From Nautilus pompilius (taxonomy: Eukaryota > Mollusca > Cephalopoda > Nautilida > Nautilidae), in the NCBI GenBank assembly GCA_018389105.1, contig JACATO010000985.1:243501-307500 (forward strand): a DNA stretch of 64,000 bases, written 5' to 3'. The notes under the pieces were generated by a model, which did not search any database, had not been told where the DNA came from, and worked only from the letters and a program-made list of their open reading frames with translations. Shown here piece by piece: positions 10,001 through 63,394 of this stretch. The first letter of the stretch is position 1; each line of letters starts with the position of its first letter. The translations under genes were made by a program, and so were the position numbers.

Positions 10001-13000
10001 TTAATGTTTGCTTCTGCTTTGTCTATAATCATTTCTTATTTTTATTCATTTTATGCTAAAATTCATACTATTGAATTTGTTTATGTTTATACTTAAAATT
10101 AAAGGCACAACATCGAAATCTTTGGGATTGATTCATTTTTACATTGTAAGAGAACTCAACAAAATGAAGTGTTGTTTTGCAATACTTTTAAGAATAACTG
10201 AAATGGTAACTTTGTGAAATTAAAATTTTGTGTTGAAAATATGAAAAAAGATTTGATAAGTTAAAATTTTTTTGTTTGTCTTAATTAAGCACAGACCAAA
10301 CTCTCCCCCCCACCTTTTTTTAAATTTTGATTTTTATGATATAACTTGTCTTGGATGAACCAAGATTGCTCCTTTGTGTGTATTTTCTTTTTTCCTGTAG
10401 GATGATGTGACTGACTTGGATACACCAAAAAACTCAGTACACTCATTTTACCTGAACGGTGACTTCACCGCCAGCCCCGAACTGAAAAGCAAACTAACCA
10501 AAGACCAGAACCGTCACCTGTGTCGTGTTAACAGAAATGGCACGCTTCAGACCAGCATGGTTTTTCAGGCTGACTTCTCTGGTTACTTTACAGCCAGGGT
10601 TCTAGTAAATGATTCTGATGGTTTCAATGATACCGCAGTTGTCATGGTGAGTTTGCCTTTAAGATGATGTTTAGAAATAAAGCATTTATGTTCATTAAAT
10701 AACAGAGATATTTTTAGTAGGTTGGCTGAATTTTGAATAGCATTAGTGAACAGTATTCTATTACTGCCAATAGTTCTTTTTCAATTGTATCCTTTGCATA
10801 GCCATTTAAAAACAAAGAAACCTTAAATTTAATAGACTAGAAATGCGTTTCAAGTGTATTAACAAAAACGAAACAACAATGAAAGTAGCTGCACGTTCTG
10901 GTCATTGTTTAAATTGGACATTTTTTGAATTTTCATGGATTTTTCCTGAAACAAAAGAAAGTTTAGCTAACTTCCTGACACAAATAGCTTTTTTTAATGA
11001 TACTGTTGTTGAAAATCTGTCCTCAAACAGCTAGTGCACCACTAACTACTATAAATGACTAACACAGAATGATATTTAGAATCTTGTATATTTTTGTACA
11101 CTATTGTAAAACAAAAAAATCATATTTGACTCAATCCACTTAAAGGAATTTATAAGAATTATTTTTCTTGTAATAGTTTTAGGATTCAGGATTTATACAA
11201 TTATGATAATTTCAAATTTCCTAAGATCTATTCTATTTACTATTTCCATTACTGGATGGATATAAGTTTTACTTTTATTGAAAATAAAAAATTATTCTAT
11301 ATTTTGATGAATTTACATCATACCAACTTCTGATCAAATAGTTGGGGTTATATCCTGAATTCTTGCTATGCATACCCATGATCAGTATTATATTGTATTA
11401 ATTTTTATGATGACTATATTTTTCTTTTCTACTTGAGGTATATATCATTGGTCAAAAACAAAGACTTAAAATCATCTTTCGTCAAAAACCAGAACAAGTC
11501 AGGAAATTCCAAACTGAATTTCTTAAGTAAGTATTGTGAAAATTAATTGTATAAATTATTAGACTTTTTTTTTCCAATATACTGTTCAAATGGTGTGCAA
11601 AAATATATTATCCATGTAAGGATTTCAATATGTGGATTTTGCATTTTGTCATACTATTTATATATAATAAGTAAAAATTGTAATTTTTGTTTGTTTTAAT
11701 ACACAGGAATCTTGGAAAAATACTGAAATATAAGATTATTTCAAGCAAATTGGAAACCCACATAAACGAAAACAATCAACCAGAACCTGATAAGTAAGTA
11801 AATGTTCAGGGTAAAGCATTTATATACAGGGTGATTGAAAAGTAACTCCCTATTTTAAAATACTTATAATTTATCCTATTATTGTAATATTTTTCTCAAT
11901 TTTTTTGTGCATGTTCCATGATGTATGGGAATTAAATTGGTGTGCTTGGAAGCCGCACTACTGTTAAACACTCTCTGCTGAAGACTGCAACATTCATATG
12001 GAGTTTGGGGAGGTGATGATGGCTTGGTATGAAGATTGGTCTGATCTCTAAAAATATCCTCTGGAGTGATGAAGCGGTATTCCACATCGGTGGGTTTGTG
12101 CACAAACCGTCACAACTGCCACTACTGGGCGGGAGAAGATCCTCGTATTACCTCTGAAAAAATGCAAAATTGGCCCAAGGTAACGGTATGGTGTGGAATG
12201 ACCTCTGACAGAATTGTGGGTCCCTTCATCCTTCACGATACCATGAATTCCGAAAGGTACCTCACCATGCTGAGAGATGAAATCTGGCCAGTTATCAGTA
12301 CATGGGAGAATATTGAAGATTTGATTTTCATGCAAGATGGCACTCCTCCACATTTTGCTATTGTTGTTCGTGAATGGCTGAATGCCTACTTCCCTGGGAG
12401 ATGGATGGGTCGTCGTGGTCCGCATGAGTGGCCAGCCAGAAGTCCTGACTTAACACTCTGTGACTTTTTTCTTTGGGGTTGGTTAAAGGAGCAAGTCTAC
12501 TCTACCAAACCAACAACTTTGGAAGAACTTGAAGGGCGAATACAAGAAGTTATGTCTTCCATCCCACAAGAGTTCCTTGTGAAATCAGTTGACATGGTTC
12601 CCAGGTGGCTTGCGAAGCTGGTGGTGAATGCTGGCGCCCATATCGAATTTTAAATAAAACTCCACGCTATACACTTTCTTATCATATTCATTTCTTGTAA
12701 GAATTGTAGTTCAGAAATAAATTACAAGTACTTAATAATAGGAAGTTACTTTTCAATCACCCTGAACAGGTATATTATAGAAACGTTCCTTGTTTACAAA
12801 ACAAGATCTGGACACAATCTGTCACAGATTCAGTACCAACTTTGTATGTATTCACTACAAATGGTTAAAATCTTTGTTTTAATTGTGTTTGGCAGATATA
12901 TTGGAGCCCTGTCTAGATTTATGTTACTCACATCTGCAGTAGTTTAGGTATCTATATCTACACTCCAGTATGAACAATTTTCCTTAAACAATTGATGTAT

Positions 13001-16000
13001 TAATTTTTTTAAATATGCAATGAAAAAGTTTGGTCAAACTAAACTGCCCAACATTTCTTCACTTATTTTTCTGCTGACTAAGATCTGATGTTTGTTTTTA
13101 ACTAATTTTGGGGCGCTGATTTCAAAAATAAAATTGGTTTTTGCCTGTCACGTCAAGTTTTTGTTCTATGGGATCATCTTAAAATGGTTAACTTTTTACT
13201 TGGTCAACAAGGAGGATACACGAAATATCCATGTTTCTTGTGCTTGTGGGATAGTAGTGCTAAGGACAAGCATTGGACTCAGAAGAACTGGCCGGTGAGA
13301 ACATGCTTAGATGTCAGAGAACCAAATATCAAAAACCAACCACTAGTAGATCAGGTAAAAATCATCTTTCCTCCTCTCCACATCAAACACTGGGTCTAAT
13401 GAAGCAGTATGTTAAAGCTCTGAGCATAGAAGGTGACTGTTTTAAGTACATATGCACAACATTTCCTAGCCTCAGTTATGAAAAAATAAAAGCTGGTGTG
13501 TTTGACGGGCCACAAGTCAGAAAACTGATGAGAGATCAACATTTCACAAGCTCCATGAATGATATGGAGAAAAGAGCATGGAATTCTTTCGTGGCTGTTG
13601 TGAAAAATTTCCTGGGAAACAAAAAAGCTGAAAATTACAAAGATCTTATTCAAACTGCTTAAGAATTTTCATCGTCTGGGTTGCAACATGAGCATAATGG
13701 TTCATTTCCTTGACAGTCATCTTGATAAATTTCCTGAAAATCTAGGTGATGTAAGTGATGAGCAAGGTGAGAGGTTCCATCAAGATATACAAGATATGGA
13801 GGAGTGATACCAAGGAAAGTGGGATACTCTCATGATAGCTGACTACTGTTGGAGTATTAAAAGAGACTGTCTGGAAAGGAAGCATGTGTCATTTACTGAT
13901 ATCAGTTAATGTAAATAAACTCATGTCTGTCATTGTTTTGTTTGTACAGTATTCTAAATGAAATGATAAGAATATTCTGGATTAGTTTGTGCTCATTTTT
14001 GACTAAAATTCAATCAATTCTACCATCGATTTATATTTTTCTATTTCAATATTTTGATCTGATATGTTATAGTTAACCAATATACAGGGTGTCCGTAAAG
14101 TTACTATACAGTCTTACAAGTTACTGGTCGTTGTTTCAATGCCGGTACGATGACATTTCTCAGTTTGTCCAGGTACCTTTCTCCTGTAACAGTTCCGTCG
14201 AAGAACTGTGGACCCACAATTCCATCAGACGATATTCCTGCCCAGACAGTTATTCCAGGCTGGTTCAATTGGGACATGATCGTAAACTGGTAAGACTGTA
14301 TAGTAACTTTACGGACACCCTGTATTTGTTAATCTTAAAATTGATTCATGGTATTCTTTGTTGGAATGGTATTCTAAATAAAATGATAAGAATAGGATTG
14401 AGGTGATTGTGGAAATGATTGTAATCGGATACTTTTTTATGGCAATTGATCGAAAATGGGGGTATGCTGTAGAGCAAAAACTTGACGTGATATTTGAGTG
14501 CAGCGCCCCCAAATTAGTCAGTATTCTGAAAATGTTGACTGATACTGTTTTACTGAGTTACAAATGCGGCTATACCAATGTCCATGGTGCATTGATATGC
14601 GTCTTGATATGATTTATAATTTGTAATTTTTTTACTCATGAAATTTAAGACTGCATGCTTGCAGCAGACAAAATAGTGTACATTTTATGAGCATCACATA
14701 GTTAATTTGAAGTTCTCTATACCTCATTTGTTTGTTCACTTTTAGAACAGATATGTATATATTCGCCATAGACAAGAATGTTACAGTGCCAGCAGAGAGA
14801 TTGAACAGGTAAGTGTGCAGTGAAGGGAGCATTTGTGAATTTAATCCCTTAAAAAAATTTTGCTTGGATTTAAAAACTCAGCAGACAAAATATTTACAAG
14901 AAAACAAAACAATCGCAATTGGCAGAATGCAGGATAAAATGTTCGTAGATGTACCTGCCTAAATACTTATTTAAAATCTCTTTTCATCTTGAAACCCAAC
15001 GAAATAGAATAACTGTAATTCTACCTGTTCCCTTCATATAGGTTTCATTTGAATGTTTGAATGTCCCATATTGCGTCTTCTGGATAGAGTAAATAACTTT
15101 TAAAATATTGTTTATATCGTAGATTGTGGTTAATAAAACAAGATCAGGCTGTAGGTAAAAACATTTCTCAGAAGAGTGGCCTGAGCATTATTAAATTTTA
15201 AATCACTTTCTAATACAAGTAACAGGCTTTAGTCCAGCATCTGATTGCACGTCTGTGCAGGTGAGTGAAGCAGGGTAATATAAAAGAATAATCTGTTTTA
15301 CTTAGAATTATGAAGACCGCCCGAGATATTCGCTGTTACTTTATTTCTTTGCTGGTTTGATTCTCAGATCTAAATAATAGCGACACAGTGTGTAGTATTT
15401 TAGCTACAGAAGTTTCCATGTACTTGCAAATTGGCTAAAAGTAGAATAAAGTAATACATAAACATTATTGGTCTGTGTGTAACAACTGAAATACACTATA
15501 ATGTTTAAATATCAATTTTAAAATTTTGACGCGCACACACACACACACACACACAACAGAGTTGAACTTTTTTGTTTCATTTATTATCAAGCAGAAAAAT
15601 TACGTTATCACGATCTGCCTTTGCTTTGTAATTATTAATTATTTAAGAAAATAGTGCTTCCATTTCATTTTTACTTGAAGGATTATAGGATTGGCATCTT
15701 TAGTTAAATTGCTCTTGCCTAGTTTTTTTTTCACAAATGAAAAAGGCTTTATGAAATAATAATAATAATTATTATAATTATCAATATTGCAACTGAGTTA
15801 TTAGTCTCATTTTCTATAATCTGCATGTAAGCAGATCACTTGAATCAGGCCTACAGATATAATGATGCTTAAATGCTGCTATCTACTATAGGAAAATCCA
15901 CTCTCTCTTTCACTAATTGGATCTGGGCATATTTGAACATCATATATAATACGTTCTGAAGTAAAAACTGGTTATATTAATTTAAAATCTGTATATATAT

Positions 16001-19000
16001 ATATATATATATATTTTTAAGTAGGTTTTGATGATTCATTATCAGAGAAATTAAAAGTAGACCAGAGTTAGTTAGTTTTTTGGAGAGGCAGGAGGTGAGG
16101 AGAAAGAAATTGGATGTAGGGAATGATTTTTTTAAGCAGCTTTTGCAGAAGAATCCTTCTATTTGTGTTTTCTATCTGTTATTTGGGTAAAGGCCATTTA
16201 TTTATTTATTTCTTACCATATTTAGAAGCATGTTAAAATTCAACAAGTTTAAAATAAGGTCCTCAGGTTGATAGTGCTTCTTGACAAATTCTATGAATGA
16301 GTATTAGAGTTAGGGTTGTTACAGCTTAGTGATCCACGTTTAGCAGTGATGAGATTTACTGCAGGAAGTCTTGGAGAAAGTTCTAAGTTTCTTGCGTGTA
16401 ACGTTGTGTGGTATTTTAAAACCTGTGTTGTCACTGAAGACCTGCACAGTTATTGTTCTTTCCTTACGAATTTCCTTTTTTTCTGTATTTTACTATGAGA
16501 CATTGAAAAGAATTATTTTATGTAAAAAGTACAACATATCCACATATAATTGAAAAAAATAATTCTTAACTTAAAATGTCAAAACATTTTTTTCAGGTTT
16601 TATTATATGAATCTGACTTCTTTTTTCTTTTTTTTTGTTTCATTTAAACATTTTTTTGTGTTCCTGATTCTAGTAAATTTTAAAGGAAAAACACCCTTTC
16701 ACTCATTTTGGTATTCGGCTATTCTGAGCCTGACCTATAATATTCAGTGTTTTTCTGTATTAATATTTATGCCTGTTGAATTGTTTTTTGGTAATAAATA
16801 GGAATCCAGTGTTCCTGATGCATGCTTCCATTTCTTCCTTTTTTCCAATGCTGGTTTAGAGAATTGGACCTCAGTGCCCAGGCCCTGACAAGCATATACA
16901 ACAAGTACAATGTTCTGAAAACGTTTGTAAGTTAGCTAGCTTTTTTTTTTTTTTTGTTTTTTTCTTCTACATTTCATTTACATTAAAAATCTTAATAATT
17001 TTGAAAAATAATTTCTGCACACTATGAAGTTAAAAAAAAAAAAAGTGGGGGGGGGGGCTTTAAAGATGCTGCACAGGGTGAGCCAGTGTCTACGTTTTAT
17101 CTTGCAGAGTTTCTCGGACAACGAAACCTCTCTCTCTTTCTCTCTCCTCTCTCTCTCTCTCTCTATATATATATCTATATCTATATATATATTATATATA
17201 TATATATATATATGTACCAACGTCATATCTCTCTCTTTGTGTACTAACGTAATCTATCTCTGACCGCTGCTCCACGTGTTACTGGAATTATTAAGACTGG
17301 GGCCCCAACCCATGCTAATGCCTTCATAAAAATTACCTTATTCACGTTTGCCCCTAACAACACATTAAGACTAAAATTTACAAATTTCACCAACATATCA
17401 GTAACGTTCAACATTATAAATGTAAAAAAAAACACGTTATTTATAAGTTTCTTTTTTATGAACTTTAATATTGTTATATGCACATTTCAGACTACAGTTG
17501 AAAAGGAAGCTGTTAACAGTAGTAAAACAAAGAAAGATGAAGTTGTGCTTATTGCAGTTGTATCACTTCTGGCCGTCTTTTTAGTAGTAATAATACTCTT
17601 GTTCTTCAGCAGTACTCGAAGGTGAGAAGTGTGAATTTTGACATCTCTATATGTGCTGCATGCATTTTCTGAATCTTTTTTTTTTTTAAATGAAATTGTC
17701 ATATATATTGAATATAAAACTACATAATATAAAGCTGGTAAACTAAAATCACATTTAAAGGGCACAATCCTTAGGGATGAAATTAAAATGGCTTGGCATA
17801 GAATTAGCTGTGGAAATGAATTCCTTTCTGTTTTCTTTATGAAACTCAGTAAAGACCAGAGATTTTTGTCCAGGTCGCCTGCCTCTGGTGCTTTAACTTT
17901 ATTAAATCTGGATAGTCTTTATGAATGTCTTGTTTAATTAATTACCAAAATATGGGAAAACTATTTAAATAAATAAATTTTGGATGTGAGAAATATTTTA
18001 CAGTTGATTTATATTCACAACCTTTCTTTCATGTTTGTCTTTGTTACAGTAATTGTAGACATGTTCTCCATATTCATTTTGAGTAGTATTTTAAAGGTAA
18101 AGAATCTATACACGGCGTAGTGATAGATCACTGGAACCAAGTAAAGTGCCCCGTGCCTTTAGATAAACACTTATTTGTTTTTTCTAACAGTTTTGTAAAT
18201 AACGCTTATGATTAAATGTTTTGAGGCTTGTATGTGAAATCGTGAGAGCATTCCTTTAGACAGTATTTTTAAATATTTTATTCAAGATACAAGAGAAAAT
18301 TAAAGGCTGCAAATATCAACGTGTTCTGTAAGTACTTGGCTCTATTTCTTTTGTTTTTGCCTTATATGCAACATTTTGGGAAAAAAAAACTGTTTGCTAG
18401 AATTTTCAAAATTTTGCAGCAAATTTTGTTTTTGTTTAGTACTGTGTCAAAAGAATTACTTACTATTCAAGTGGTTTTAAAAAGTTTTCTTTTCAAAATA
18501 TTAACTGCCAATGGATTTTCAAACTTAACATTTAGAAAATAAAATCTTATCTGTAACGGGAAAAACGCAGCAACTTCTCTAAAGAAAATAGATTTAGGCT
18601 TGCAGAATTTTAGTTCTCAAAATAATATTGGCATAAGGTGATAGATGTATGTAATAGCGATTAATTTGGCAAATTCCATTGGCCAAAATAATGCTAAGTC
18701 ATGTTGTCATTTAATGTCAAACATTTGACCTTCTTTGCAAGTGAAAATCTGTGTCACTAGGGTAGCTAGTTCTGCTAAGTTCATTTGAAAAGATACAAAA
18801 CTGCACAGCCAGATATATATTCGATATTAGCAAAATTTTCAAAAACGACCTTACCTTTGTGGACAAAAATATTGCACAGAAATTCCAGTTCATAACAGCT
18901 CTTTTTACAGTAGTTTATTAAGTGGTTTTATGTTTAACTTTTGAAAGAAAGTCTGACAAACACTGGCTATAATAAAATCCAAATATGTAGTCAAATGGCT

Positions 19001-22000
19001 GCTGAAAGGTGGTAATAAAGGGCTTATATTTTTATTTGCAATTTTGATTTTTTTATTCTATTTGAGAACTGTATTAAATTTATTCATTTGATTTATTTAT
19101 AATCCTTTTTGTAGCCGCAGCCCATGTACCTGATATGGAAAGATATGTAGTACCTGGTTCTAACCAACATGCCATTGAAAAGTAGGTTACAGTGTTTTTG
19201 AAACACTTTCTTTGGTGACTTGTTTTTTGTCTCTGTACATGTTCAGCATGTATTTATGCAGCATTTTCCCCCCTTGATATTTATTTAGTGAATAGCTACT
19301 AGAATTACATGTGTGCAATTTAAGAATTAAAAAAAATTTCCTCTAAGTTTCATTGTGAAACAATGATTTTACATACCCTTTTGAGTGGCCCAAACTAACC
19401 ATGTCTGCCAGCATTTCTAAATAAAGTGCATTCTCTTGCCTACTGCGGGGTTGCACTCTTAAAAAAAGCAACTGTAGTAGGAGAAATTGAGCAAATATAA
19501 GGTCTTATGGAAAATAAGGGGTTTAGGGGAACACAACTTCAATATTCAAGTAGACAAATTGGAGAGCCTTGGGGTGGCATGGTGCATTATTCGAGATGAG
19601 TAGCTCTTTGAAGGCCAAATTGTTCTTCACAAGGAACTGTTCCACCTCATACACAAAACAGTTGTTGAACCAGTCCATAAAGACTGCAGCATTTACCCCT
19701 GCCTTGTGGTTAGACTGCCAAAAAGACAAGAAGGTGGCTTTTGTTCTTCCCTGCAGTGCACAGGGCTCCTGTGAGCAGTAAAAGAGCATCAGCTTGATGA
19801 AGCATTCCCCTGTGGCATTGCCACAAAGGAGAAACGTCATTGGCTCCATTGCTGCCTTAAATCCCAGAGCAAATTTCTCAGCCTTTGAGATGAAAGTTCT
19901 CTTTGGTGTGTTGCTTCCAATAAAGGTCAGTTGAGTCAGCACTGAATATCTGCTCTAGCAGGTAACATTTCTCTTCAGTCAACATCATCAGGTGCTCCAG
20001 GTACATTGCAATGGCTTTGTGATATGCTGAGGCAGATTCCCCCCCACAATCTTGATATTATGCAAGAACCATCCCTTACTGGCTTGAAACTTAATGTCTT
20101 TAATGCTTCCATTCCCCTACCCAAAGTTTCCACAATGTATGTGTAGATACACTTGGCCTAGGCATTTTTTCTGGGCCTGTTTGTTCATCCATATGTTAAA
20201 AGCATTCTCCATTTTTTTTCTGTTAGAGTCATGCAGTATAAAGGTCACAGCCCTTATTGAAGCTTCAGTTTTTAGAATTGTCCTAATGGTGGATTCATTA
20301 ACTCCCATGAGTCTCCCCAACGAAGCAGCAATGTCACCATGAGCAAGTTGATCAACTACTTATAATTTATTTTCTAAAGACATCACATTCCTTGGCCTTT
20401 TTGCACTGTTTTAACCTTTACCAATGAGTACACACTTAGGAGCCATGTTTAAGGGCAAAATCACCTCTAACCAGCAATAAATAAAAGTGAAGAAATGTGA
20501 AATAATACAGAGCCATCGACAGCAACCAGTCTGTACAGCAGTCATTGCATAAGAGATTGCATGGAGGGATCACCAGCAGTGATGGAGATACTGCGCAGAT
20601 GAATGTGTGTACATTATTCTTCACTGTGCTATACCACAATCTCTCTCTCTCTCTCTGGTCACTGAAATGCTTCTAGTGTAATGAATGCTGTGTATATAAC
20701 AGATTTCAGAGGCATGTTTATGTAGAAAATATACATTCTGTTTTAACTTATTTCATATATATATTCTTTTAGTTAGTTAATTGCTAAGGCATCAACATAA
20801 GTTTTCTGGCTTGAGATATAGTGACTATGTTAAAAAAATATTTATAAACTTCAACAGATAAAAAATGTAATGTCTAGCATTTGACTTTTTGACATTATTT
20901 AATTTTAAAATTTGCATTCTAATGTATGGTTCATGTCACAACAGAATTCTGTCAACATGTTATGTATCATTAAAGATGCTACTGTTTCAGACAATAGGTT
21001 GAATCAAAACTCAGTCTCATCCTTTTTTTGAAAAGTTGAAACCTCTTTTGCAAGCAGCATTGTTGTAATAATAATAAATCATGAGAATTTCTTGCATGAA
21101 TGCACTCAATGAAGTACTCTGGTTTTCCTGTTGTAAGATCTTATACCTGGGAACCAGGTGCCACTGCAAACCTACTCTTTACTTCCTCATCTGTAACATT
21201 TGTATGGAATTTCATCACTGGCACTTGAGAAACTCTTTCCTGTGTTTGCCTGTTTGAGGATAAAGAGAGCACAAATGTATATCTTTTGAGAAAATAGTCA
21301 AGACTTGAAACAACAAAACTTATACACAAGAATAAGTGCAACATGTAGTTTAAATTTCTAAAATAACAGATGCTTGCATTTTTGTAATATTGTTTCTAGT
21401 TGGATGAGCTTTCTAAATTAGGCTTCTGGTTATCCATTTGATGGTACTGAATATCTGTGAATAGGATTGGCTGATATGATAGATCTAGGCTTAAATAAAA
21501 ACTCATTTAAATGTTTGCAGACTGTCTGAAAGAGCATTATATCAAATGTAGATGCAAGATTAATTTTTCTGAGGAATTGGATTAGCATCTTTCTGAATAC
21601 CAGAAATAAATCCTTTGGAAACGAGCAGTTTGTTTGGAACCACTGTTAGTATGCACAGAAAATTAGCAAGTTCTTTCTGTTTCATTCACTTTGACAATAT
21701 TTTTTTTTTCTTTTTGCTTACAAATGTATCTCAGTAGCACCCATTTTTTTGTAACTTATTTTTAATATTATTTTTAAACGTATGCCTATGTTCATGAACA
21801 TGTCTAAGTCTCTTTTGTAGATACTGATGCATCTTAGTCTAGTTGATTTAAGGATACTTAGCTGTTCATTTTCATTTTTTTTTTTTAACCCTAAGTCCCT
21901 TTGGCTTCCTCGTGAAAAATTATGATAAAACAATCTGCAAATAAAAATATTTAAAGGAATTATATGCCTGATGTATCGCAGATATATGAAATTGCTTGTT

Positions 22001-36000: not shown

Positions 36001-36197
36001 GCGCTAGCTTTAATTAAAGTCACTAATACCCGGCGCATTTTCGAGGGGTCAGTTCGAATTAAGAAAATGAATTAACCTTTTTGAGAGAGAGAGATGACGT
36101 CAGTACAGAGAGAGATATGACGTCAGTAGCAGAGAGAGAGAGAGTATGACCGTCAGTACAGAGAGAGATATGACGTCAGTACAGAGAGAGGAGAGAG

Positions 36198-36254
<57 letters not shown>

Positions 36255-37495: not shown

Positions 37496-39032
37496 CGGGT
37501 GCATCTCAAAAATTAGAATATCGTGGAAGAGTTCGATATTTTTGTCAGTTATTTCAGAAAGTGAAAATTGTATATATTCTAGACTCATTACATGTAAACT
37601 AAAATGTTTCAAGCATTTTTCAATTTTAATTTTGATAATTAGGGTCTACAGCTAAAAAAAATAGAAAAAATGTATCTCAAAATATCAGAATATTCCATTT
37701 CGAGTTTGAGTAAATCACTATTTATGCAGTATAAATAACATGAATCTCTCGGTCTGGTTCAGTACACACAACCACAATCATGGGGAAGACTGCTGACTTG
37801 ACAGTGTGCCAGAAGACACTCACATTGACAACACCCGCCTCCACAAGGAGGGTAAGCCACAGAAAGGTCATGCTAAAAGGGCTGGCTGTTCACAAGAGTG
37901 CTGTATCAAAGCAATATTCATGGACAGTTTGACTGGAAGGGAAAAGGTGCACAAGCAAGGGAGGATGACCGCAGCCTTGAGAGGATTGTCAAGCAAAGCT
38001 GATTCGAGAACTTGGGGAGCTTCACAAGGAGTGGACTGAGGTTGGAGTCAGTGCATCAAGAGCCACCACGTGCAGACGTGTCCAGGAAATGGGCTACAAG
38101 TGTCGCATTCCTAGTGTCAAGCCACTTCTGAACCAGAGACAATGTCACAATTGTCTTACCTGGGCTAAGGAGAAAAAGAACTGGACTGTTGCTCAGTGGT
38201 CCAAAGTCCTCTTTTCAGATGAAAGTCAAGGTCCCACAGTCTGGAGGAAGAGTGGAGAGGCACAGAATCCAAGTTGCTTGAAGTCCAGTGTGAAATCCTC
38301 ACAGTCAATGATGATTTGGGGGTGCCATGTCATCTGCTGGTGTTTGGTCCACTGTGTTTTTTAATCAAGTCCAAAGTCAATGCTGTCGTCTACCAGGAGA
38401 TTTTTTAGCATTTCATGCTTCCGTCTGCTGACAAGCTTTATGGAGATGCTGATTTCCTTTTCCAGCAGGACTTGGCACCTGCCACAGCGTCAAAAACTAC
38501 TAGTAACTGGTTTGCTGACCGTGGTATTACTGTGCTTGATTGGCCAGCCAACTCACCTGACCTGAACCCCATAGAGAATCTATGGGGTATTGTCAAGAGG
38601 AAGATGAGAGGCACCAGACCCAACAATACAGACCAGCTGAAGGCCGCTATCAAAGCAACCTGAGCTTCCATAACACCTCAGCAGTGCCACAGGCTGATCA
38701 CCTCCATGCCACGCCGCATTGATGCAGTGATTCGTGCAAAAGGAGCCCCGACCAAGTATCGAGTGCAGAGATGAACACACTTTTCAGATTTCTATGTTAT
38801 AAATCCTTTTTTTTAATTGATCTTATGAAATATTCTAATATTTTGAGATAGTGGATTTTTGATTTTCATGAGCTGTCGGCCGTAATCATCAAAATTAAAA
38901 CAAAAAAAGGCTCGAAACATTTTAGTTTACAAGTAACGAGTCTAGAATATATATACAATTTTCACTTTCTGAAATAACTGCCAAGAAATATTGAACCTTC
39001 CCATGATATTCTAATTTTTTGAGATGCACCCG
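37496..39032 (+). mobile_element. Tc1-like element with long TIRs, near full length
   Basis: It starts CGGGTGCATCTCAAAAATTA, ends in the complement and is flanked by TA on both sides. The inverted repeats extend over 200 bases (to about 37,710 and from about 38,810), with inner repeats of the outer motif (tctcaaaatat), the IR/DR layout of many Tc1 elements. It is 1537 bases long, typical for the family. It holds a damaged DD34E transposase gene in + orientation. Confidence 0.92.
37780..38773 (+). pseudogene. Tc1 transposase pseudogene (DD34E)
   Basis: The start MGKTADLTV is at 37,780 and the normal end KYRVQR with stop at 38,771. Recognisable blocks are RVQEMGYKCRIPSVKPLL, LFSDES (first catalytic Asp), FLFQQDLAP (second Asp) and SPDLNPIENLWG (Glu, with 34 residues between). 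About eight codons after FSDES appear deleted, the frame changes near the start of the gene and again near 38,320, and in-frame stops occur near 38,408 and 38,661. The gene is dead, but the TIRs look well kept, so the copy might still be moved by an active relative. Confidence 0.88.
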
Positions 39033-40920
39033 TATATATGCAAGTACCGATTGGTTGACGAAGGACTCGGTGCGAACAGAGGGCCGTGGGGTGCCTGTAG
39101 TCGATAGCGGGTCGCGCTAGAACGATGTGGTAGTACACAAAGCACAGACGCTGTTCTGTTTATTGAACAGCCTGTTGTTGTTTCTAATAGTCATTTGCCG
39201 TGTGTTCCCTGAGTGGATATTAGCAAAAATTCTACAAGTTATTCGAAATTCATCTTATCTGCGTGTAGTTTCAGCATCCTAAAGAACAGGCCAGCATGCT
39301 ACAACTTGTTACCATACCCTTTTGAAGGCACCATATTTACTTTATCTATTATTTATTTTATTTTGTAAAAAAAAAATATTTTTGTACGAAAATATGCAAA
39401 ACCAAACACGTTACCATGGTAAGCAAAACCGTTTTGTTAAGAAGTTATAATAAACAAACAATAATGGGAGATGCTCTGCGGGTCCTGGGCGATTACTGGT
39501 ATCGGAGAAAAGGAGCAGTGATCGTTATATATATATATATATGACCCATAAACAGGAATCACATAAAAGGGTGAGTTATTTTAATAAGAAAAAAAAAATG
39601 AAAAGTACGTAACACGAGTTAGACTAAGTACAGGTGTGTCTCATCCCCTTATCAGCAAATAAAGGTAATTTATCGTTCGATAGATCAGCGATGGGATTCA
39701 AAATTCTGACAGAACTGAGATCTTTGCGTTTTTCATATTATCTCAGCCCCACTACGCCTCAATAATAGTCCACAATTAAAAGACTTATTTATTTCCGCAC
39801 CGCCATACACTCGACAATTTAGCCGTGAGACCCTAGCGACTCTCCTAAAGAAACGCTCTCGTCTATTTTTCTAAAAAACGACGACTTAATTTACACCTTA
39901 GCCGAATAAATTTTCTTTTTTTCTTAACGTTTACATCCGTCGATAATTTCAAAACGATTTTACGAAACTGAAACTTTCAACACTTTGTTCAACTACAAAC
40001 GGGTGATGCCAAGCTCTCCTGCCAAAAAGTACAACAAATACGTTGTCTGCGTCATAGTTGTGCACAGGTCTTGATAGTGATCGGGTGTGCATTATAGCTG
40101 AGCTGATGTCAATTGTTGATCGTTTAGCTCTCTGGCACTCCGAGTTTGTTTTTCTTTAGGCTTTTTTTTTCTGAAGAGCTTGCGACTGCAGTCTTTGAAT
40201 TATTAATACGTGAATGTTTATTTTTAGATTGTTTATTACGAATTCTGACTGGGAAGCCAAATTATACATAACAATGATACAAGGTAAAATTACGCGGACT
40301 TTGACTTCGGTCCCTTACCAAAATCAAACCGAAAAATTATTTGTGAATGAAGCGAATCAATCACGAAAGTTCACTGTAAATTTATTATGAAAGAAATCTC
40401 GCTCACAACTCGGTGGAACATTTTAGAAATACTTTGTTAAAAACTGCGGGGAAAAAAGCCTGGCCATCGTTTCGACACGATTGGATAACCGCATTTACCA
40501 GCGTATCATACTTTTTTAACTTTAAATCAGCCCTTCGATCCGAGTTATGCGATCGAGTGTTCACCCGGTGTGGCCCAGCACACATAGCTAGCTTATCGCT
40601 TCGCCTCTACGGTGGCAGATCTGGTTTTTTCCCCCCCAGAGAACGGATCCGTTCGGTACCGGAGCCGCTCCGAGATAGCGTCAGCATCTCGCTGAAGAGG
40701 AGAGCAGATAACGAGAACGTCAGCTCGCTACCCTGGCATTTTCCGGGGGAATGCGGAGCGCCAAACATATTTTCTTTCTCTTTTTTTAAACTTTCATTCT
40801 ATTATTTCAAAATTTTTTTTTATTCCGCCTCTTCTCTAATTTGAAAACTAAAAAAATCCTGTCGAACATTCGGTCTGCACCATTCCGTTTCGTTCCTGCA
40901 ACGAATGGAAAGGGGCGATG
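39033..40920. other. CpG-rich intergenic DNA
   Basis: No gene recognised. It contains a short (TA)n run near 39,527-39,541. The longer open frames here are not coding-like. Confidence 0.5.
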
Positions 40921-41130
40921 CGACTAGTTAGGTCTTGCTCCAACCGTCCCCCCGGTCGCTAATGACGTGGCGCCCTCTGTTACTTCATCGAGCGACTAGT
41001 TACGCCTTGCTCCACCCACCCCGGTCGCTAATGACGTGGCGCCCTCTGTTACTTCATCGAGCGACTAGTTACGCCTTGCTCCACCCACCCCGGTCGCTAA
41101 TAACGTGGCGCCCTCTGTTACTTCATCGAC
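40921..41130 (+). repeat. Tandem triplicate of a 69-72 bp unit
   Basis: Units at 40,921-40,992, 40,993-41,061 and 41,062-41,130. Each begins cgactagtta and contains gacgtggcgccctctgttac. Units 2 and 3 are nearly identical and unit 1 is 3 bases longer. Because 69 is a multiple of 3 an open frame runs through it, but it only reflects the repeat. Confidence 0.9.
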
Positions 41131-48433: not shown

Positions 48434-48605
48434 AGAGAGAGAGAGAGAGATGGAGAGAGAGGAGATGGAGAGAGAGAGAGAGAGAGATGGAGAGAGAGAG
48501 AGAGAGAGATGGAGAGAGAGAGAGAGGAGAGAGGAGAGAGAGAGGCGAGAGAGAGAGAGAGAGAGATGGAGAGAGAGATGGAGAGAGAGAGATGGAGAGG
48601 AGATG

Positions 48606-49404: not shown

Positions 49405-50590
49405 CTGCATCCTTTTGCTACTTACATCATTACTGCTTTCCATAACTAGACAGCAACACATCGATCTCACGTCATTAGATTTGATTATAATCAGTCAACA
49501 ACAGCATCCAGCTTACATAATTGCTGCTGTCTGTAACTAGCCGTAACTAGGGAACAACAGCATCTAGCACTCATCACTACTGTTGTACAGAATGAATAAC
49601 AGCAGCATCTAGCTTACATCATTACTGCTGTGCGTTACTAGGAAACAACAGCATCTAGCTCTCATCACTACTGCTGCAGAAATCAGTCATCAGTCAACAA
49701 CAGCATCTGGCTTACATCATTACTGCTGTCCGTAACTAGGCAACAACAGCATCTAGCTTTCATCACCACTGTTGTACAAAACAGGCAACAATAGTATCTA
49801 GCTTACATCATTGCCACTATCTGTAACCAGGCAACAAGATCGTTCAGCTTACATCATTGCCACTATCTGTAACCAGGCCAAGATCATCTAGCTTACATCA
49901 TAGCTGCTATCCGTAACTAGGCAACAGCAGCATCTAGCTTACGATCATCTAGCTTACATCATAGCTGCTATCCGTAACTAGGCAACAACAGCATCTAGCT
50001 TAAGATCATCCAGCTTACATCATTGCCACTATCTGTAACCAGGCCAAGATCATCTAACCTACATCATAGCTGCTATCCGTAACTAGGCAACAACAGCATC
50101 TAGCTTACAATCATCTAGCTTTCATCACCACTGTTGTACAAAACAGGCAACAATAGCATCTAGCTTACATCATTGCCACTATCTGTAACCAGGCAACAAC
50201 AGCATCTAGCTTACAATCATCTAGCTTTCATCACCACTGCTGTACAAAACAGGCAACAATAGCATCTAGCTTACATCATTGCCACTATCTGTAACCAGGC
50301 AACAAGATCGTTCAGCTTACATCATTGCCACTATCTGTAACCAGGCCAAGATCATCTAACCTACATCATAGCTGCTATCCGTAACTAGGCAACAGCAGCA
50401 TCTAGCTTAAGATCATCCAGCTTACATCATTGCCACTATCTGTAACCAGACCAAGATCATCTAGCCTACATCATATCTGCTATCCGTAACTAGGCAACAA
50501 CAGCATCTAGCTTACAATCATCTAGCTTACATCATAGCTGCTGTCCGATGCTAGGAAACAACAGCATCTAGCACTCATCACTATCTTTGT
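49405..50590 (+). repeat. 46-bp minisatellite, about 25 units
   Basis: The unit is roughly catctagcttacatcattgc, then cactatctgtaaccaggcaa, then caacag. Units at the left edge are diverged and central units are nearly identical. Variant blocks (for example ccactgttgtacaaaacagg) recur at intervals, so larger multi-unit segments have duplicated. Confidence 0.9.
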
Positions 50591-53500
50591 ACTAAACATA
50601 CAACGACAGAATTACATGCAATTTACAGAATTCCTTGGAAAAATTAAAGAATTAGTAAATACTTAACACGATGAGTAATTTTGCTGACTTATGCAATAGG
50701 ATCTTGTTTAATGCATGGTTTCCTATTCTGGTATAAAAACCTAGTCAGCAATTATGGACTCGTTGGTTCACGGAATCCTAGGTCTTTACTTTGATCGTGT
50801 TAATTAGCGCACCCCATCAACGTATTACATTCGCAACACGAACGTCTGACGAGCGGTTCTCTGTGCACAGTTTATTTACAGTTGGACATCGGCCTAATAA
50901 CACCGAAAGCCATCCAGTAGCGCAGAGAAGCGTGGGTTGAGATCAATCTGACCCCATTATTTTGTAGGCTCAGCTGTTTCCAAACGTTCCTTGTCGAAAC
51001 TTTTCCATAGACGATCGCTCCTTGGTTTAATCCCATCGTATGGCGTATGATAAAGGAACTATAGAGAAACTGGTTTTACATATCATTAAAAGTCAGATCG
51101 CCAAATGAATTATTTCTCACAAATCAATGTGTCCTTCTATGTCGTAGGCTGAAGGAGCGGCGAGTATTTGTAATTTGCATTTTATTAACATCAAGCTTGT
51201 TCATTCTCTTCAAGATCAATAAACGTTAATCCTTTTCACAAATATTCTCCATTGTTACATAAAATTCTTATTTTAAAAAAAGGAATTATTTACAAGAAAT
51301 TGAAATTTTTAAAAATGTAAATAATGAATCTTTGTTTGCTATTCATATTTTTCTTTACATATTTCAACTATCATTAAGCCTTTTAGATTGTTAATTAGTT
51401 TTTGTATTTATCAACAATTTAACTGTGCTGTTTCCTTTAATGAACTGTACATCGATCTATAGGAATTCATTGGTTTCAACTTGCTTGCATTTTGAAGTCT
51501 TAGATCATTGTTTCAATAGAATGAAGTGTTTGAGAGCGGCTTTTTTTTAGTTACTAGTGGAAAAATCTAATTCTAATTATTTGAATAATTTTTATTCGTT
51601 TTGTCTACTGTTTCTAGTAGTTTCTCTTTTTCCTTATCACCGGAGTTAAGTTAATGCGCAATCCAACTAATGTATGCTCAAATGGAAGTCAGACTTGCTG
51701 ATCAGTTTCTTCTGTATGACAATAAAACTCACAGAAAAACCCTTCCAATTCTGCAGATGTAGCGTAAGGGTTGTTTCTTTTTTAACCATTTAGTATCCAG
51801 CTATTGGCAAATATTTCAATCCCAGATCACACATCCGGCCGCCATTATAGCCAGCGGACGCGCGGGGGTAAGTACAAAAACCAAACTGATATAAAACGAC
51901 CCGCCCATTTACGGCATACCAAGCTTTTGTGAGTCAGTGATGGCGAGGTGAACCTCCAAAGGATTAGTTCCCCCTCTGTAAGCCGGCAACCAAGATCGTT
52001 ACGGCTCTCGTGGACGGCGTCGGTGTGAGCTGGGGGGTTTTCCTCAAAGATTTCCAGTAAAACGTGCCTGCTCGTAACGGTGGAACTGCTATTCCGTGTA
52101 CGACAACAGGCACGGCTGTAACGGATTCTCTACCCTGCTAAACGGACTTCTCGCCGGGCGCTCACCTAACGCACCCATCCGGCATATTCGCATTCGTTCT
52201 TCTCAGAACGACGTCCGCCAACTCACAAGAATTAGTTCTTCTGCCAACTCTCGCGAGTGTTTTTGCTTTTGACTCATCTGGAGTCTTCGCATGTCTGCGA
52301 CGATCGTTAAGCCGAAAAGAGGGGGGGAGACGTGATCGTAATGCTTCCTTCGCGGTTGACAAGAATATTCAATAGCGTGAAAGAATTACATTCAGTATTC
52401 TTACGCTTCGAACCTGAAGCTCGATAGGTCGTGATAGGTTACCTCCCCGTATTTTCCAGATTACTTCGACATCTATTTCACGTTTAATAAGTCTTTGAGA
52501 ATTTGCAGGCATTAATTTCGATAAACACACAGCGCGGGTATTTTTAGTGTGAAAAAAATTGTCTGTGACTAATCTACAGCAATGAAAACCTAATTTAAAA
52601 CGTCATGGGCGGAAAATCGTTGTCTCTCCAGAAACAAAGATTATATACAAAAGTAACTTTAATTTCTTCTTTACGGAAGCGGAGGAAGAGGGAATGTGGT
52701 TCGAGTATTTTCCATGAGACGCTATATTTGGCGTGGCAGGTTTCTCCGAACTCCCATAGTTAATTAGAAGGTTAGAACCTTCAGTAAGGGCGAGTGGATT
52801 CCACATTTATGCCACGAAGTCTCGTGTCAGAAGCCATACCCCAATCATACTCAGGCAACCGTCATCGCAAAGTACTTCGGCTTCTTTGGCCCATCCGCGT
52901 CGCTTCTGATCGCACTGGCAGGAGATCCACTGCGAATTCCCTATTTCTTCAATTCCCCGCCAACTTAGGCCACTCGTTCTTGACGCTGCTAAGAACAACG
53001 CCGTCCATTTTTTTCCTATTTTAAACCTGTTTACACGAAGAGGAATCTACTAAAAGACACTCCGAGTATTTGCTTACAACTAAAACATCTTAAAATCAAT
53101 GAATTCGCCGCCTTCTCTTCTCAGCCAATCAGCAGGCTACTTCAGAACAGAACCAAACAAACAAACAAGTTTTTGTTTGTCAATAAACGCGCCAATTCTA
53201 AAGAAAAGTCTTAGAAATTCTTTATTTTAAGCAAATGATTTACTTTCCGCTGTTTGAAAACAGATTCTTTTATAAACAAGAGACCAGTGGAGGAAAAGTC
53301 GTGACTTTATTTTGTCTTTTACAGTGCAATGTCAAAAATAGTCTCGCCGTCATTTAGGTTTGTAATAATATTTATTTGAAAACAGTTTTTTTTTTAAACA
53401 TGTAAAGGTCTTGGAATATTTCGAAAAACAATAGCGCAAGGTTTTTGTAATATCCCTTCTGAACATTCTTCGTAATTTCGAAATATCTCCGAAAATTCCT

Positions 53501-55895: not shown

Positions 55896-56247
55896 ATAAT
55901 CGACGTCATGTGATTTGACCTTCTTTATTACACGTATAGATCAGCTGTAATCGACGTCATGTGATTTGACCTTTATTACACGTATAGATCAGCTGTAATC
56001 GACGTCATGTGATTTCACCTTCTTTATTACACGTGTAGATCAGCTATAATCGACGTCATGTGATTTGACATTCTTTATTACGCGTGTAGATCAGCTATAA
56101 TCGACGTCATGTGATTTGACCTTCTTTATTACACGTATAGATCAGCTGTAATCGACGTCATGTGATTTGACCTTTATTACACGTATAGATCAGCTGTAAT
56201 CGACGTCATGTGATTTGACCTTTATTACACGTATAGATCAGCTGTAA
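55896..56247 (+). repeat. 48-51 bp minisatellite, 7 units, CRE-like core
   Basis: The unit is taatcgacgtcatgtgattt, then gaccttctttattacacgta, then tagatcagctg. Units differ mainly by presence or absence of a ttc triplet and by acacgtat versus acgcgtgt. All seven keep CGACGTCATGTGATTT, apart from one point change in the flank. Confidence 0.92.
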
Positions 56248-58261
56248 TTGATGGCAAAACTCTCATTTATACGATTAATTAGTAATTACTGCTGCTGTAA
56301 CAACTGGTCCCGTCTACACTACAATCAACTAAACCAGTCTGTGAGGATACCAAAGAAATTCCACTTCTGAAACCCCTTAAATTGTCAAAATTAAGATGAA
56401 ATTAAATACAATCATTAAACAAATAAATAAAATTAGTAAATAATAATATAAATAATTATCTAAAAATGTAAAATATGTGTAAAAATTAAATTGAAGTGTT
56501 GCCAAGGAGTAAGAACTGATTGCAAATTTTTGCCTGCTTACGTGAATTGGTATCAAAATATGTAGAAAGCTAGAGCTTTCATGTTGTAGGAAATAAAGCA
56601 AATCCATCTTTTGTTTTTCGCGTGAACGATACCGAACGTTCTGCTCGTTTTAATGTACGTGATATCGTAGGTCAGCTGTTTCTCTGTTGTTGGTGGTATT
56701 GTCTTCTATTCGCATTTTATAATCCGGTTTAGACACACCGAACAAACGCCAGAAGTAGGGAAAGCTTTCGAGAGGAATTAAACAAACGCCACGTCATCTT
56801 CTTCCTCCGCACGAAGCTGAAGTCAGTTTTTAAAGACGCGGTAATAATCTGTTCAGCCGACTTGATTAACTATTGTTCGCCGCCATTTCTGACAGCTCCG
56901 CCTCCTGAACCCATGTCTCCTTGTTGCTATTTGGAGGAGGTGGGGATTTATATTGTGTTTTTTTGTTTGTTTGTTTGTCTTTTACATTCCTAGTTTTGCG
57001 TATTTTTGGTCACGCGGTGCGGAAACGGGAGTGCACGTCTCATCTAATTAGCGAAGATAGCAGAGGCTGCGTTTCGGTCATCTGCACTCGGGAAGCAGAT
57101 GTAGAGCGCGGCCCGACCCCGAACGGGCGGGCGCCCGTCTCACGGATGGCGCGCGGTCCGACAGTTGTCTCCCTTCAGTTCGTCATCGCCGAGGTTGTGA
57201 TGTTTTCAAAAAACAAGCGATTTATTATTAATGACTTCTTTAGTTCAGACAAATGCGGTATTAATTCAAAATATTCTTAAATCGTAGTCTCTTTAAAGAT
57301 GCCGACTAAAGACATTATGTCCACCACGGAGCCGCTATTTCGTACTGTAAATCAACGCAAAGATTTTCTTGAAATTACCCTTAAATAAACTGATCTTCTA
57401 CTTCTATAAATCCTTTTGTGTGTGTGTTGTGTGTGTGTGTTGTGTGTGCTTTGTGTGTGTGTGTGTGTGTTGTGTGTGTGTGTGTTGTGTTGTGTGTGTG
57501 TGTGTGTGTTGTGTGTGTGTTGTGTGTTGTGTGTGTACTGTGAGGGCTTTTTTTGGAATTCCATGAACTACCAATAATGTATATTCTGCATTAAGAGGGT
57601 TAATACGGATCACGGACCGCACAAAAAGAGGCTAATAGATGTGCAGTAGAGAGTGGGAAGAGTCCGGAAGGATAATCGATGTTGCAGCCTCGCGGTTTGC
57701 TTGTTATTGACCGACTGTCCGCGGTTGTACTTCTTGAGAATAGGGTTCATCACCGAGGAGGAGGAGGAAAGACCATTTCGGCCGACGCGACGGCAGGGTT
57801 AGGGTTGGCGCCGTCCGGCTCGGCTCGGGGACGGACCCGGCAGTCAGTCCGGCTGTTGTCTTCAGACAAGCGGTCGGCGTCTACGTAGAGCTTCCTCCTC
57901 GCGAGATTCAAACCGCGGATCCCTCAGGAATTTCTGCAACCTTGAAACGCCAGTGACAACTGAGGGCTGGTGATCCTTTGGGTGAATGACCAGCAGCATC
58001 TTAGAAGGGCGTCGGTCTGGTGAGCATAACCATCGAGTACATGGACCCATCCCCCACGTACTTAGCGTCGCCTTTAGCTGTCACAGGCAGTGAGGCCACA
58101 AATACGAGATCTGTTCGGCGGTGGCGCAATGGAGAGAAATATATCTTCTGATTTCATCATCCTCCGGCGCTTGTTATTCGATCGCTGTACGAACGTCTCG
58201 CTGAGCTTTGCCGATGATGGAGGCCTCATTAGTCTGAATGCCTTTATCTCTCTGAAGAAGT
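56248..58261. other. CpG-rich intergenic DNA
   Basis: No gene recognised. A GC-rich, CpG-dense block lies at 57,040-57,200 and another at 57,690-58,240. Either could be a promoter, but no coding exon could be tied to them. Confidence 0.45.
57417..57540 (+). repeat. (TG)n microsatellite
   Basis: About 124 bases of TG repeats broken by extra T residues. It is low-complexity and not coding. Confidence 0.95.
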
Positions 58262-60805
58262 AAGAGAGAGAGAGAGAGAGAATATAGAGAGAGATGACGT
58301 CAGTACAGAGAGAGAGAGAGATTCAGTATAGATAGAGATGACGTCAGTACACACAGAGAGAGATTCAGTCTAGATAGAGATGACGTCAGTACACAGAGAG
58401 AGAGAGATTCAGTATAGATAGAGATGACGTCAGTACAGAGAGAGAGATTCAGTATAGATAGACATGACGTCAGTACAGAGAGAAAGATTCAGAGATTCAG
58501 TATAGATAGAGATGACGTCAGTACAGAGAGAGATTCAGTATAGATAGAGATGACGTCAGTACAGAGAGAGATTCAGTATAGAGAGAGATGACGTCAATAC
58601 AGAGAGAGATTCAGTATAGATAGAGATGACGTCATACAGAGAGAGAGAGATTCAGTATAGATAGAGATGACGTCAGTTCACAGAGAGAGAGATTCAGTAT
58701 AGATAGAGATGACGTCAATACAGAGAGAGAGAGATGACGTCAGTACAGAGAGAGATTCAGTATAGATAGAGATGACGTCAGTAAACAGAGAGAGAGAGAG
58801 ATGACGTCAGTACACAGAGAGAGAGATTCAGTATAGATAGAGATGACGTCAGTACAGAGAGAGAGATGACGTCAGTATAGAGAGAGAGAGATGACGTCAG
58901 TACAGAGAGAGAGATTCAGTATAGATAGAGATGACGTCAGTACAGAGAGAGAGATTCAGTATAGATAGAGATGACGTCAGTACAGAGAGAGAGATTCAGT
59001 ATAGATAGAGATGACGTCAGTACACAGAGAGAGAGAGAGAGAGACAGAGAATATAGATAGAGATGACGTCAGTACAGAGAGAGATTCAGTATAGATAGAG
59101 ATGACGTCAGTACACAGAGAGAGAGATTCAGTATAGATAGAGATGACGTCAATACAGAGAGAGAGATTCAGTATAGATAGAGATGACGTCAGTACAGAGA
59201 GATATTCAGTATAGATAGAGATGACGTCAGTACAGAGAGAGATTCAGTATAGATACAGATGACGTCAATACAGAGAGAGAGATTCAGTATAGATAGAGAT
59301 GACGTCAGTACACAGAGAGAGAGAGTTTCAGTATAGATAGAGATGACGTCAGTAAACAGAGAGAGAGAGATGACGTCAGTACACAGAGAGAGAGATTCAG
59401 TATAGATAGAGATGACGTCAGTACAGAGAGAGATGACGTCAGTACAGAGAGAGAGAAATGACGTCAGTACAGAGAGAGAGATTCAGTATAGATACAGATG
59501 ACGTCATACAGAGAGAGAGAGAGATTCAGTATAGATAGAGATGACGTCAGTACACAGAGAGAGAGAGATCAGTATAGATAGAGATGACGTCAGTACACAG
59601 AGAGAGAGAGAGAATATAGATAGAGATGACGTCAGTACAGAGAGAGAGATTCAGTATAGATAGACATGACGTCAGTACAGAGAGAAAGATTCAGTATAGA
59701 TAGAGATGACGTCAGTACAGAGAGAGATTCAGTATAGATAGAGATGACGTCAGTACAGAGAGAGATTCAGTATAGAGAGAGATGACGTCAATACAGAGAG
59801 AGAGATTCAGTATAGATAGAGATGACGTCAGTTCACAGAGAGAGATTCAGTATAGATAGAGATGACGTCAGTACAGAGAGAGAGATGACGTCAGTACAGA
59901 GAGAGAGAAATGACGTCAGTACAGAGAGAGATTCAGTATAGATACAGATGACGTCAATACAGAGAGAGAGATTCAGTATAGATAGAGATGACGTCAGTAC
60001 ACAGAGAGAGAGATTCAGTATAGATAGAGATGACGTCAGTACACAGAGAGAGAGAGAGAATATAGATAGAGATGACGTCAGTACAGAGAGAGATTCAGTA
60101 TAGATAGAGATGACGTCAGTACAGAGAGAGAGATTCAGTATAGATAGACATGACGTCAGTACAGAGAGAAAGATTCAGTATAGATAGAGATGACGTCAGT
60201 ACAGAGAGAGAGATTCAGTATAGATAGAGATGACGTCAGTACAGAGAGAGATTCAGTATAGAGAGAGATGACGTCAATACAGAGAGAGATTCAGTATAGA
60301 TAGAGATGACGTCAGTACAGAGAGAGAGATTCAGTATAGATAGAGATGACGTCAGTTCACAGAGAGAGATTCAGTATAGATAGAGATGACGTCAATACAG
60401 AGAGAGAGATTCAGTATAGATAGAGATGACATTAGTACACAGAGAGAGAGATTCAGTATAGATAGAGATGACGTCAGTACAGAGAGAGAGATTCAGTATA
60501 GATAGAGATGACGTCAGTACACAGAGAGAGAGAATATAGAGAGAGATGACGTCAGTACAGAGAGAGATTCAGTATAGATAGAGATGACGTCAATACAGAG
60601 AGAGAGATTCAGTATAGATAGAGATGACGTCAGTACACAGAGAGAGAGAGAGAGAGACAGAGAATATAGATAGAGATGACGTCAGTACAGAGAGAGATTC
60701 AGTATAGATAGAGATGACGTCAGTACACAGAGAGAGAGATTCAGTATAGACAGAGATGACGTCAGTACAGAGAGAGAGATTCAGTATAGATAGAGATGAC
60801 GTCAG

Positions 60806-60838
<33 letters not shown>
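58262..60838 (+). repeat. CRE satellite: about 65 tandem units each with TGACGTCA
   Basis: The unit is about 38-42 bases: tgacgtcagtacagagagag, then attcagtatagatagaga; some units lack the second half. By hand I count about 65 perfect TGACGTCA palindromes and one altered copy (tgacatta, near 60,427). Spacing varies from about 20 to 50 bases through GA slippage and loss of the ATTCAGTATA half. Marker variants (gacatgacg, cagttcacag, gagagaaatgacg) recur in the same order, showing higher-order duplication. A pure GA tract ends the array. Confidence 0.97.
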
Positions 60839-63073: not shown

Positions 63074-63109
63074 ATTATTATTATTATTATTATATTATTA
63101 TTATTATTA

Positions 63110-63157
<48 letters not shown>
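63074..63157 (+). repeat. (TTA)n microsatellite
   Basis: About 84 bases of TTA repeats with two short interruptions. It is complementary to the AAT run 185 bases downstream. Confidence 0.95.
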
Positions 63158-63339
63158 GGACGTGGCCACTTTAACTTTGTTTTTATTTTTTGTGAACCGC
63201 ATGACGTGGTCACATGACGTGGTCACATGACGAGCTGTGATTACATCACAGTCTTTAAGATATAGCGCCTGAAGATTACAAAAACAATGTCTATCGCCAA
63301 CATTGGTATTAAATAGGTTATCAAGAATTCTGTCGGGGC

Positions 63340-63340
<1 letters not shown>

Positions 63341-63394
<54 letters not shown>
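63341..63394 (+). repeat. (AAT)n microsatellite
   Basis: About 54 bases of uninterrupted TAA repeats, in inverted relation to the TTA run at 63,074. Confidence 0.95.

Follow-up and report, generated by a model that had tools for sequence, protein, structure and literature searches.

The window analysed here is a 64-kb stretch of Nautilus pompilius DNA. At 3.1-4.9 kb its plus strand has Pfam Cadherin matches that exceed the curated cut-off; weaker ones lie at 0.8-1.7 kb. When CpG was computed by block (at 2-kb resolution for 22-46 kb alone), the observed/expected ratio jumped near 30 kb, from 0.16-0.45 on the side of the cadherin exons to 0.75-1.25 after it, and GC rose at the same boundary from ~0.32 to 0.39-0.46. 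This boundary looks like mosaic gene-body methylation. A transposon remnant at 11827-12764 is bounded by 48-nt inverted ends (90% complementary) and encloses an ORF at 12045-12653; this ORF, a transposase remnant at 12.0 kb, has a DDE_3 match that falls short of the curated cut-off. A short element at 14082-14325 has 41-nt inverted ends that are 98% complementary, and on the minus strand at 19523-20359 there is a further transposase remnant, with a DDE_1 match and, below the cut-off, a weak match to CENP-B_N, which we take to be Tigger/pogo-like. A 98-nt inverted repeat (37571-37668 and 38856-38953) is 84% complementary, its arms 1187 nt apart. Near the right end, an ATT tract at 63074-63157 and an ATA tract at 63340-63394 together form a perfect inverted repeat of 49 nt, and a 13-bp CATGACGTGGTCA repeat sits in the 180-nt gap between them.

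The most conspicuous repeat is a 2.6-kb tandem array of CRE-bearing units far beyond the CpG boundary (Table 1). CpG observed/expected is near 1 around the array, so that its 65 CpGs would be expected to survive deamination without selection. Pfam matches were found neither at E<=0.01 in 10 ORFs tried from 41.6-62.2 kb nor at E<=0.001 in the ORFs at 40380 and 47001, so no target gene was seen near the array in this subset of the ORFs. The window has no stop-to-stop ORF of at least 130 aa beyond 48,970, no RNA family at the gathering threshold and no tRNA. The array was also considered as coding sequence and rejected, with just 13 of 65 core-to-core distances being multiples of 3.

Table 1 Positions of the repeat features described in the text, in coordinates of the 64-kb window
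Feature	Position	Strand	Description
Main array	58262..60838	+	66 core-bearing monomers, 2.6 kb, unit classes of ~40 bp and ~23 bp
First example of B monomer, GAGATTCAGTATAGATAGAG	58318..58337	+	Core-bearing monomer minus 4 bp of core
Sole damaged core, TGACATTA	60427..60434	+	
Cassette copy 1 (higher-order repeat)	59413..59862	+	From unit-order self-alignment
Cassette copy 2, adjoining copy 1	59863..60386	+	From unit-order self-alignment
Second family array, 23-bp class only	36083..36251	+	3 intact cores, 1 with inserted C (TGACCGTCA), then GA tract
Decayed family remnant, 2 units	17213..17260	-	Cores TTACGTTA and TGACGTTG; adjoins TA and GA tracts
ATGACGT-bearing minisatellites	58262-60838 (40 bp), 40920-41129 (69 bp), 55897-56248 (51 bp), 63200-63232 (13 bp)		

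The units of the main array stand head-to-tail with periods of 40 and 21 bp, inside the range of ~10-100 bp of minisatellites and short satellite-like repeats. Their core is the CRE, a binding site of CREB/ATF proteins. The sequence TGACGTCA is named CRE in the available excerpt of PMC9775316. Sixty-five of the 66 core positions are intact TGACGTCA and one is TGACATTA, which is exactly what a sequence-only reading of this DNA had counted by hand (about 65 intact copies and one damaged); that reading had also placed the array boundaries correctly to a few bases, and its description of a tandem array with an exact CRE in each unit is supported by the 65 copies. The putative CREB/ATF cluster thus consists of exact consensus sites. 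The whole window holds 69 exact TGACGTCA, and 100 dinucleotide shuffles of the window gave a mean of 0.55 and a maximum of 3. The cores were located by exact match, and apart from the B halves described below no core with a small indel was seen in the main array. Exact-pattern relatives of the array were absent from the collections of viral contigs and genome contigs. When the pattern was relaxed to three TGACGTCA separated by 8-36 bp, at least 119 stretches matched in genome contigs and 24 in viral contigs; the 143 loci taken from them serve only as a yardstick of density, and their densest 2.6 kb holds 12 TGACGTCA copies, versus 65 in the main array. In literature searches, longer unit strings gave no title on repeats and the core with repeat terms gave no title on such an array among the matches listed, which does not prove absence from print.

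The sequence-only reading had further stated that a fixed core is separated by spacers that vary freely in length. The variation in length was confirmed, but it is not free, since almost all of the change is in the number of GA dinucleotides and comes in 2-bp steps. Core-to-core distances (n=65) fell into 56 long ones of 38-52 bp, mostly 38, 40, 42 or 44 bp, and nine short ones of 21-29 bp. All nine short distances are odd and 53 of the 56 long ones are even; the three odd long distances are 1-bp exceptions, of which two come from units missing the G that follows the core and the third from a unit missing a T. Such 2-bp shifts within a class point to slippage of the GA dinucleotide tract, and the picture of a fixed core between free spacers therefore largely compares non-repetitive with slipping sequence. 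Several pure GA arrays, for example at 48434 and 55696, lie in the same domain of the window. The 66 core positions do not share a helical phase (their mean resultant is 0.121, versus ~0.109 expected for none). Distances between neighbouring cores gave a helical resultant of 0.405, because they cluster at 38-42 bp.

The 40-bp unit is itself a dimer, in which a core-bearing half is joined to the same monomer without four of the eight core bases. When the latter half (B, GAGATTCAGTATAGATAGA) is aligned to the core-bearing one (GAGATGACGTCAGTACAGAGAGA), 17 of 19 bases are identical and a single 4-bp gap coincides with GACG in the core; this alignment was equalled in 1 of 20000 shuffles with the flanks fixed. 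TRF also fits a 21-bp period across the array, with 124.6 copies and 69% matches. Among the 65 spacers, 51 are long, nine are short and five are of a third type. The array contains 51 B monomers (49 TTCAGTAT, one TTCAGTCT and one with one T fewer), besides six shorter ATATAG forms. The commonest unit is therefore a dimer carrying a broken CRE, and a large part of the monomers are without an intact CRE.

Two further sites of the same family were found in the window, which makes three, of 0.05-2.6 kb each, all having GA tracts, the core and a GTACA-type flank in common. The array at 36083 consists of four short units, one of whose four GTACA flanks has an inserted G. Because this array has only the core-bearing form, no B halves being seen there, the core-bearing monomer is taken as ancestral, and we infer that it is older than the B monomer. 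In the decayed remnant at 17213, four of 16 core bases are changed, versus none of 10 in GTACA, although these numbers are tiny. This remnant lies within the first 30 kb, with its CpG observed/expected of 0.16-0.45, and the two arrays whose cores are well kept are on the far side of 30 kb, at 0.75-1.25. The two small sites point away from any special care for the core, and they are too small for a test. No carrier transposon of the family was seen, the flanks of the arrays at 36083 and 58262 looking unrelated by eye.

We next consider how alike the units of the main array are. With GA length ignored there are 23 unit types, and a gapped self-alignment of unit order scored 26.4, versus a maximum of 15.1 in 300 shuffles. 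It paired two adjoining cassettes (Table 1), with the unit orders GLHIUMDNAEBF and GLHBCMADNAEBAF, and a third, more varied cassette copy was judged by eye to lie near 58425-58709. Exact runs are weak evidence of duplication when taken alone, as the longest run with GA length ignored is five units, reached in 10 of 1000 shuffles, and with GA length kept there is no run of four or more identical units. Spacer sequences that occur only once are crowded in the left part, with 16 in the first 34 spacers versus two in the last 31; the best-split statistic was reached in 64 of 5000 permutations. This crowding is what uneven homogenisation would give. Both homogenisation and higher-order duplication, as seen in the minisatellite class, were thus found in the array, the alignment of unit order and not the exact runs being the stronger evidence.

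The rate of substitution in the core was compared with that in the spacer, as the sequence-only reading had proposed. The cells counted were 528 from the 66 cores and 1192 from the spacers, the latter made up of GTACA in all 65 spacers and a 17-base tail in the 51 long ones. The nine short units contribute no tail, and the count excludes GA-tract changes, three indel cells and the tails of the five third-class units, which hold one change. The core showed two substitutions, both in one unit, and the non-GA spacer showed 26 substituted cells, which represent just nine distinct changes. Counted as raw cells, 2/528 versus 26/1192, the core is about 6-fold more fixed (Fisher p=0.006). However, raw spacer cells are not independent, because inherited variants repeat, ATACA alone accounting for nine cells. 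Counted as distinct changes, 2/528 versus 9/1192, core and spacer were indistinguishable (Fisher p=0.52), with low power since about four core changes are expected. Taking the damaged core as a single event gave p=0.30, and variable sites (2 of 8 in the core, 7 of 22 in the spacer) gave p=1.0. On whether the core is conserved beyond neighbouring neutral sequence, the distinct changes, the monomers without an intact core and the decayed copy lean towards no, and the per-cell count alone points the other way; a weak constraint on the core may be compatible with the counts.

Taken together, the results suggested, with a probability of roughly 0.82, that the array is a dispersed, homogenised GA/CRE minisatellite with at least three sites of one family in 64 kb; selection on the core is unsupported. 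The raw per-cell count, and the lack of small indels in the cores located by exact match, speak against this reading. There would be 65 exact CRE copies because a short GA-rich repeat that happened to contain a CRE was copied repeatedly. In the order of events and by the exchange mechanism that we infer, a founding monomer of ~21-23 bp, consisting of a GA tract followed by ATGACGTCAGTACA, would have given rise to a variant without 4 bp of the core, and the variant together with the intact monomer would have formed the 40-bp dimer. Unequal exchange or gene conversion would then have amplified dimers, some single monomers and whole cassettes of 450-524 bp, and the GA tracts would later have changed length via slippage. 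The array would be young or well homogenised, the core is unable to slip, and a count based on the core skips the monomers that lost it; together these would make the core look fixed. The caveat in the sequence-only reading that homogenisation could mimic a fixed core fits these data.

A different driver of the same growth is suggested by the heptamer ATGACGT, which is present in all 65 intact cores; two of them (58627 and 59499) carry the full 10-bp ATGACGTCAT that was tested in PMC3534124, according to its available excerpt. ATGACGT is M26, a meiotic hotspot of fission yeast that needs Atf1-Pcr1, a CREB/ATF-type dimer, and is also active in budding yeast (excerpts of PMC3534124 and PMC9775316). 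Among the five minisatellite families of the window with a TRF score of at least 60, four contain this heptamer, with units of 13, 40, 51 and 69 bp (Table 1), whereas every other 7-mer occurs in two of the five at most. The fifth family, at 49490-50612, is a complex array of mixed 44/46/61/105/302-bp periods; ATGACGT is absent from its consensus, and one copy stands 14 bases before it (49469-49475). In null draws matched in length and taken from that domain, some 7-mer was in at least four of five families in 5 of 5000 draws, and in 6 of 4000 in a repeat. By analogy with the yeast hotspot, binding at ATGACGT in the germ line would invite breaks and recombination, so that repeats carrying it, such as these unrelated 13-, 40-, 51- and 69-bp ones, would be expanded and kept uniform more often, and the CRE array would grow through recombination and not through gene regulation. 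The uneven, cassette-wise homogenisation described above would suit such a process.

Several points make this very improbable. The test was post hoc, the sharing having been noticed beforehand, and the result was reached by 18 of 4000 null draws when seven families (TRF score of at least 50) were taken and by 165 of 4000 with 19 families, 12 of which were hand-picked from the weaker rows and do not represent all such rows. ATGACGT is also somewhat enriched in the domain's unique DNA, which has six copies where CpG-containing anagrams average 2.7 (7% of the 180 anagrams reach six), so a regional excess would be part of the sharing among minisatellites. In the available excerpts of PMC3534124 and PMC9775316, ATGACGT has no association with breaks across budding yeast as a whole and not every CRE of fission yeast is a hotspot, and the excerpt of PMC5698624 describes D. 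melanogaster and honeybee as having weak hotspots or none. In the parts available of PMC2677671, the word minisatellite is confined to the reference list. The finding does give rise to a cheap genome-wide test, namely whether the CRE/M26-type heptamer is over-represented in animal minisatellites; such an excess, if found, would link the growth of repeats to bZIP binding in organisms other than yeast.

The sequence-only reading had put forward selection for binding. On this view the array would be a homotypic cluster of CREB/ATF sites that works either as a cAMP-responsive enhancer or as a sink that takes up CREB-type proteins. The perfection of 65 of 66 cores and the lower substitution per cell speak for it, and since the surrounding CpG observed/expected is near 1, the CpG of the sites is probably unmethylated and bindable. 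But 51 monomers without half of the core were amplified in the same array anyway, the count of distinct changes shows no difference, the 17213 copy decayed in its core and not in GTACA, the cores are out of helical phase, and no gene with a Pfam match was seen among the ORFs tried nearby. Selection for binding on the core is therefore unsupported, and we consider it very improbable that it made the array. CREB/ATF-type proteins may well bind these predicted sites, with no sign that such binding maintains them; a selected function as enhancer or sink is unproven and not favoured.

Purine GA tracts can serve in GAGA-factor-type binding or triplex formation. That they are the working part here and the CRE a passenger is barely credible. 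In its favour, all three family sites share GA tracts, as they do the core and the GTACA-type flank, and the same domain contains several arrays of pure GA. On the other side, tract length varies freely, and arrays of pure GA are a common kind of simple repeat.

The homogenised minisatellite accordingly remains our preferred reading, and the array is a warning case in two respects: homogenisation on its own can produce a perfectly repeated transcription-factor site, and monomers that have lost a motif are missed when units are counted by it.

Compared with known systems, the array resembles in part each of three. Minisatellites and satellite-like repeats are homogenised within an array. Classical satellite DNA forms very long and abundant heterochromatic arrays; the family has three sites of 0.05-2.6 kb in this window. 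Like GA-rich minisatellites and the dispersed satellite-like arrays of oyster (excerpt of PMC7492417), the family consists of tandem units in short, scattered arrays; unlike those, its unit is built around an exact 8-bp CRE palindrome, and no carrier transposon was seen. It shares with the CRE the exact TGACGTCA, 65 times over, but unlike a typical CRE these predicted sites sit in a tandem repeat near which no gene was recognised among the ORFs tried. With the ade6-M26 hotspot motif (excerpts of PMC3534124, PMC9775316 and PMC2677671) it shares ATGACGT in all of its 65 intact cores, whereas its host is an animal, and in yeast a single site suffices. The array is new as an example, and the class to which it belongs, that of dispersed GA minisatellites kept alike by copying, is already known.
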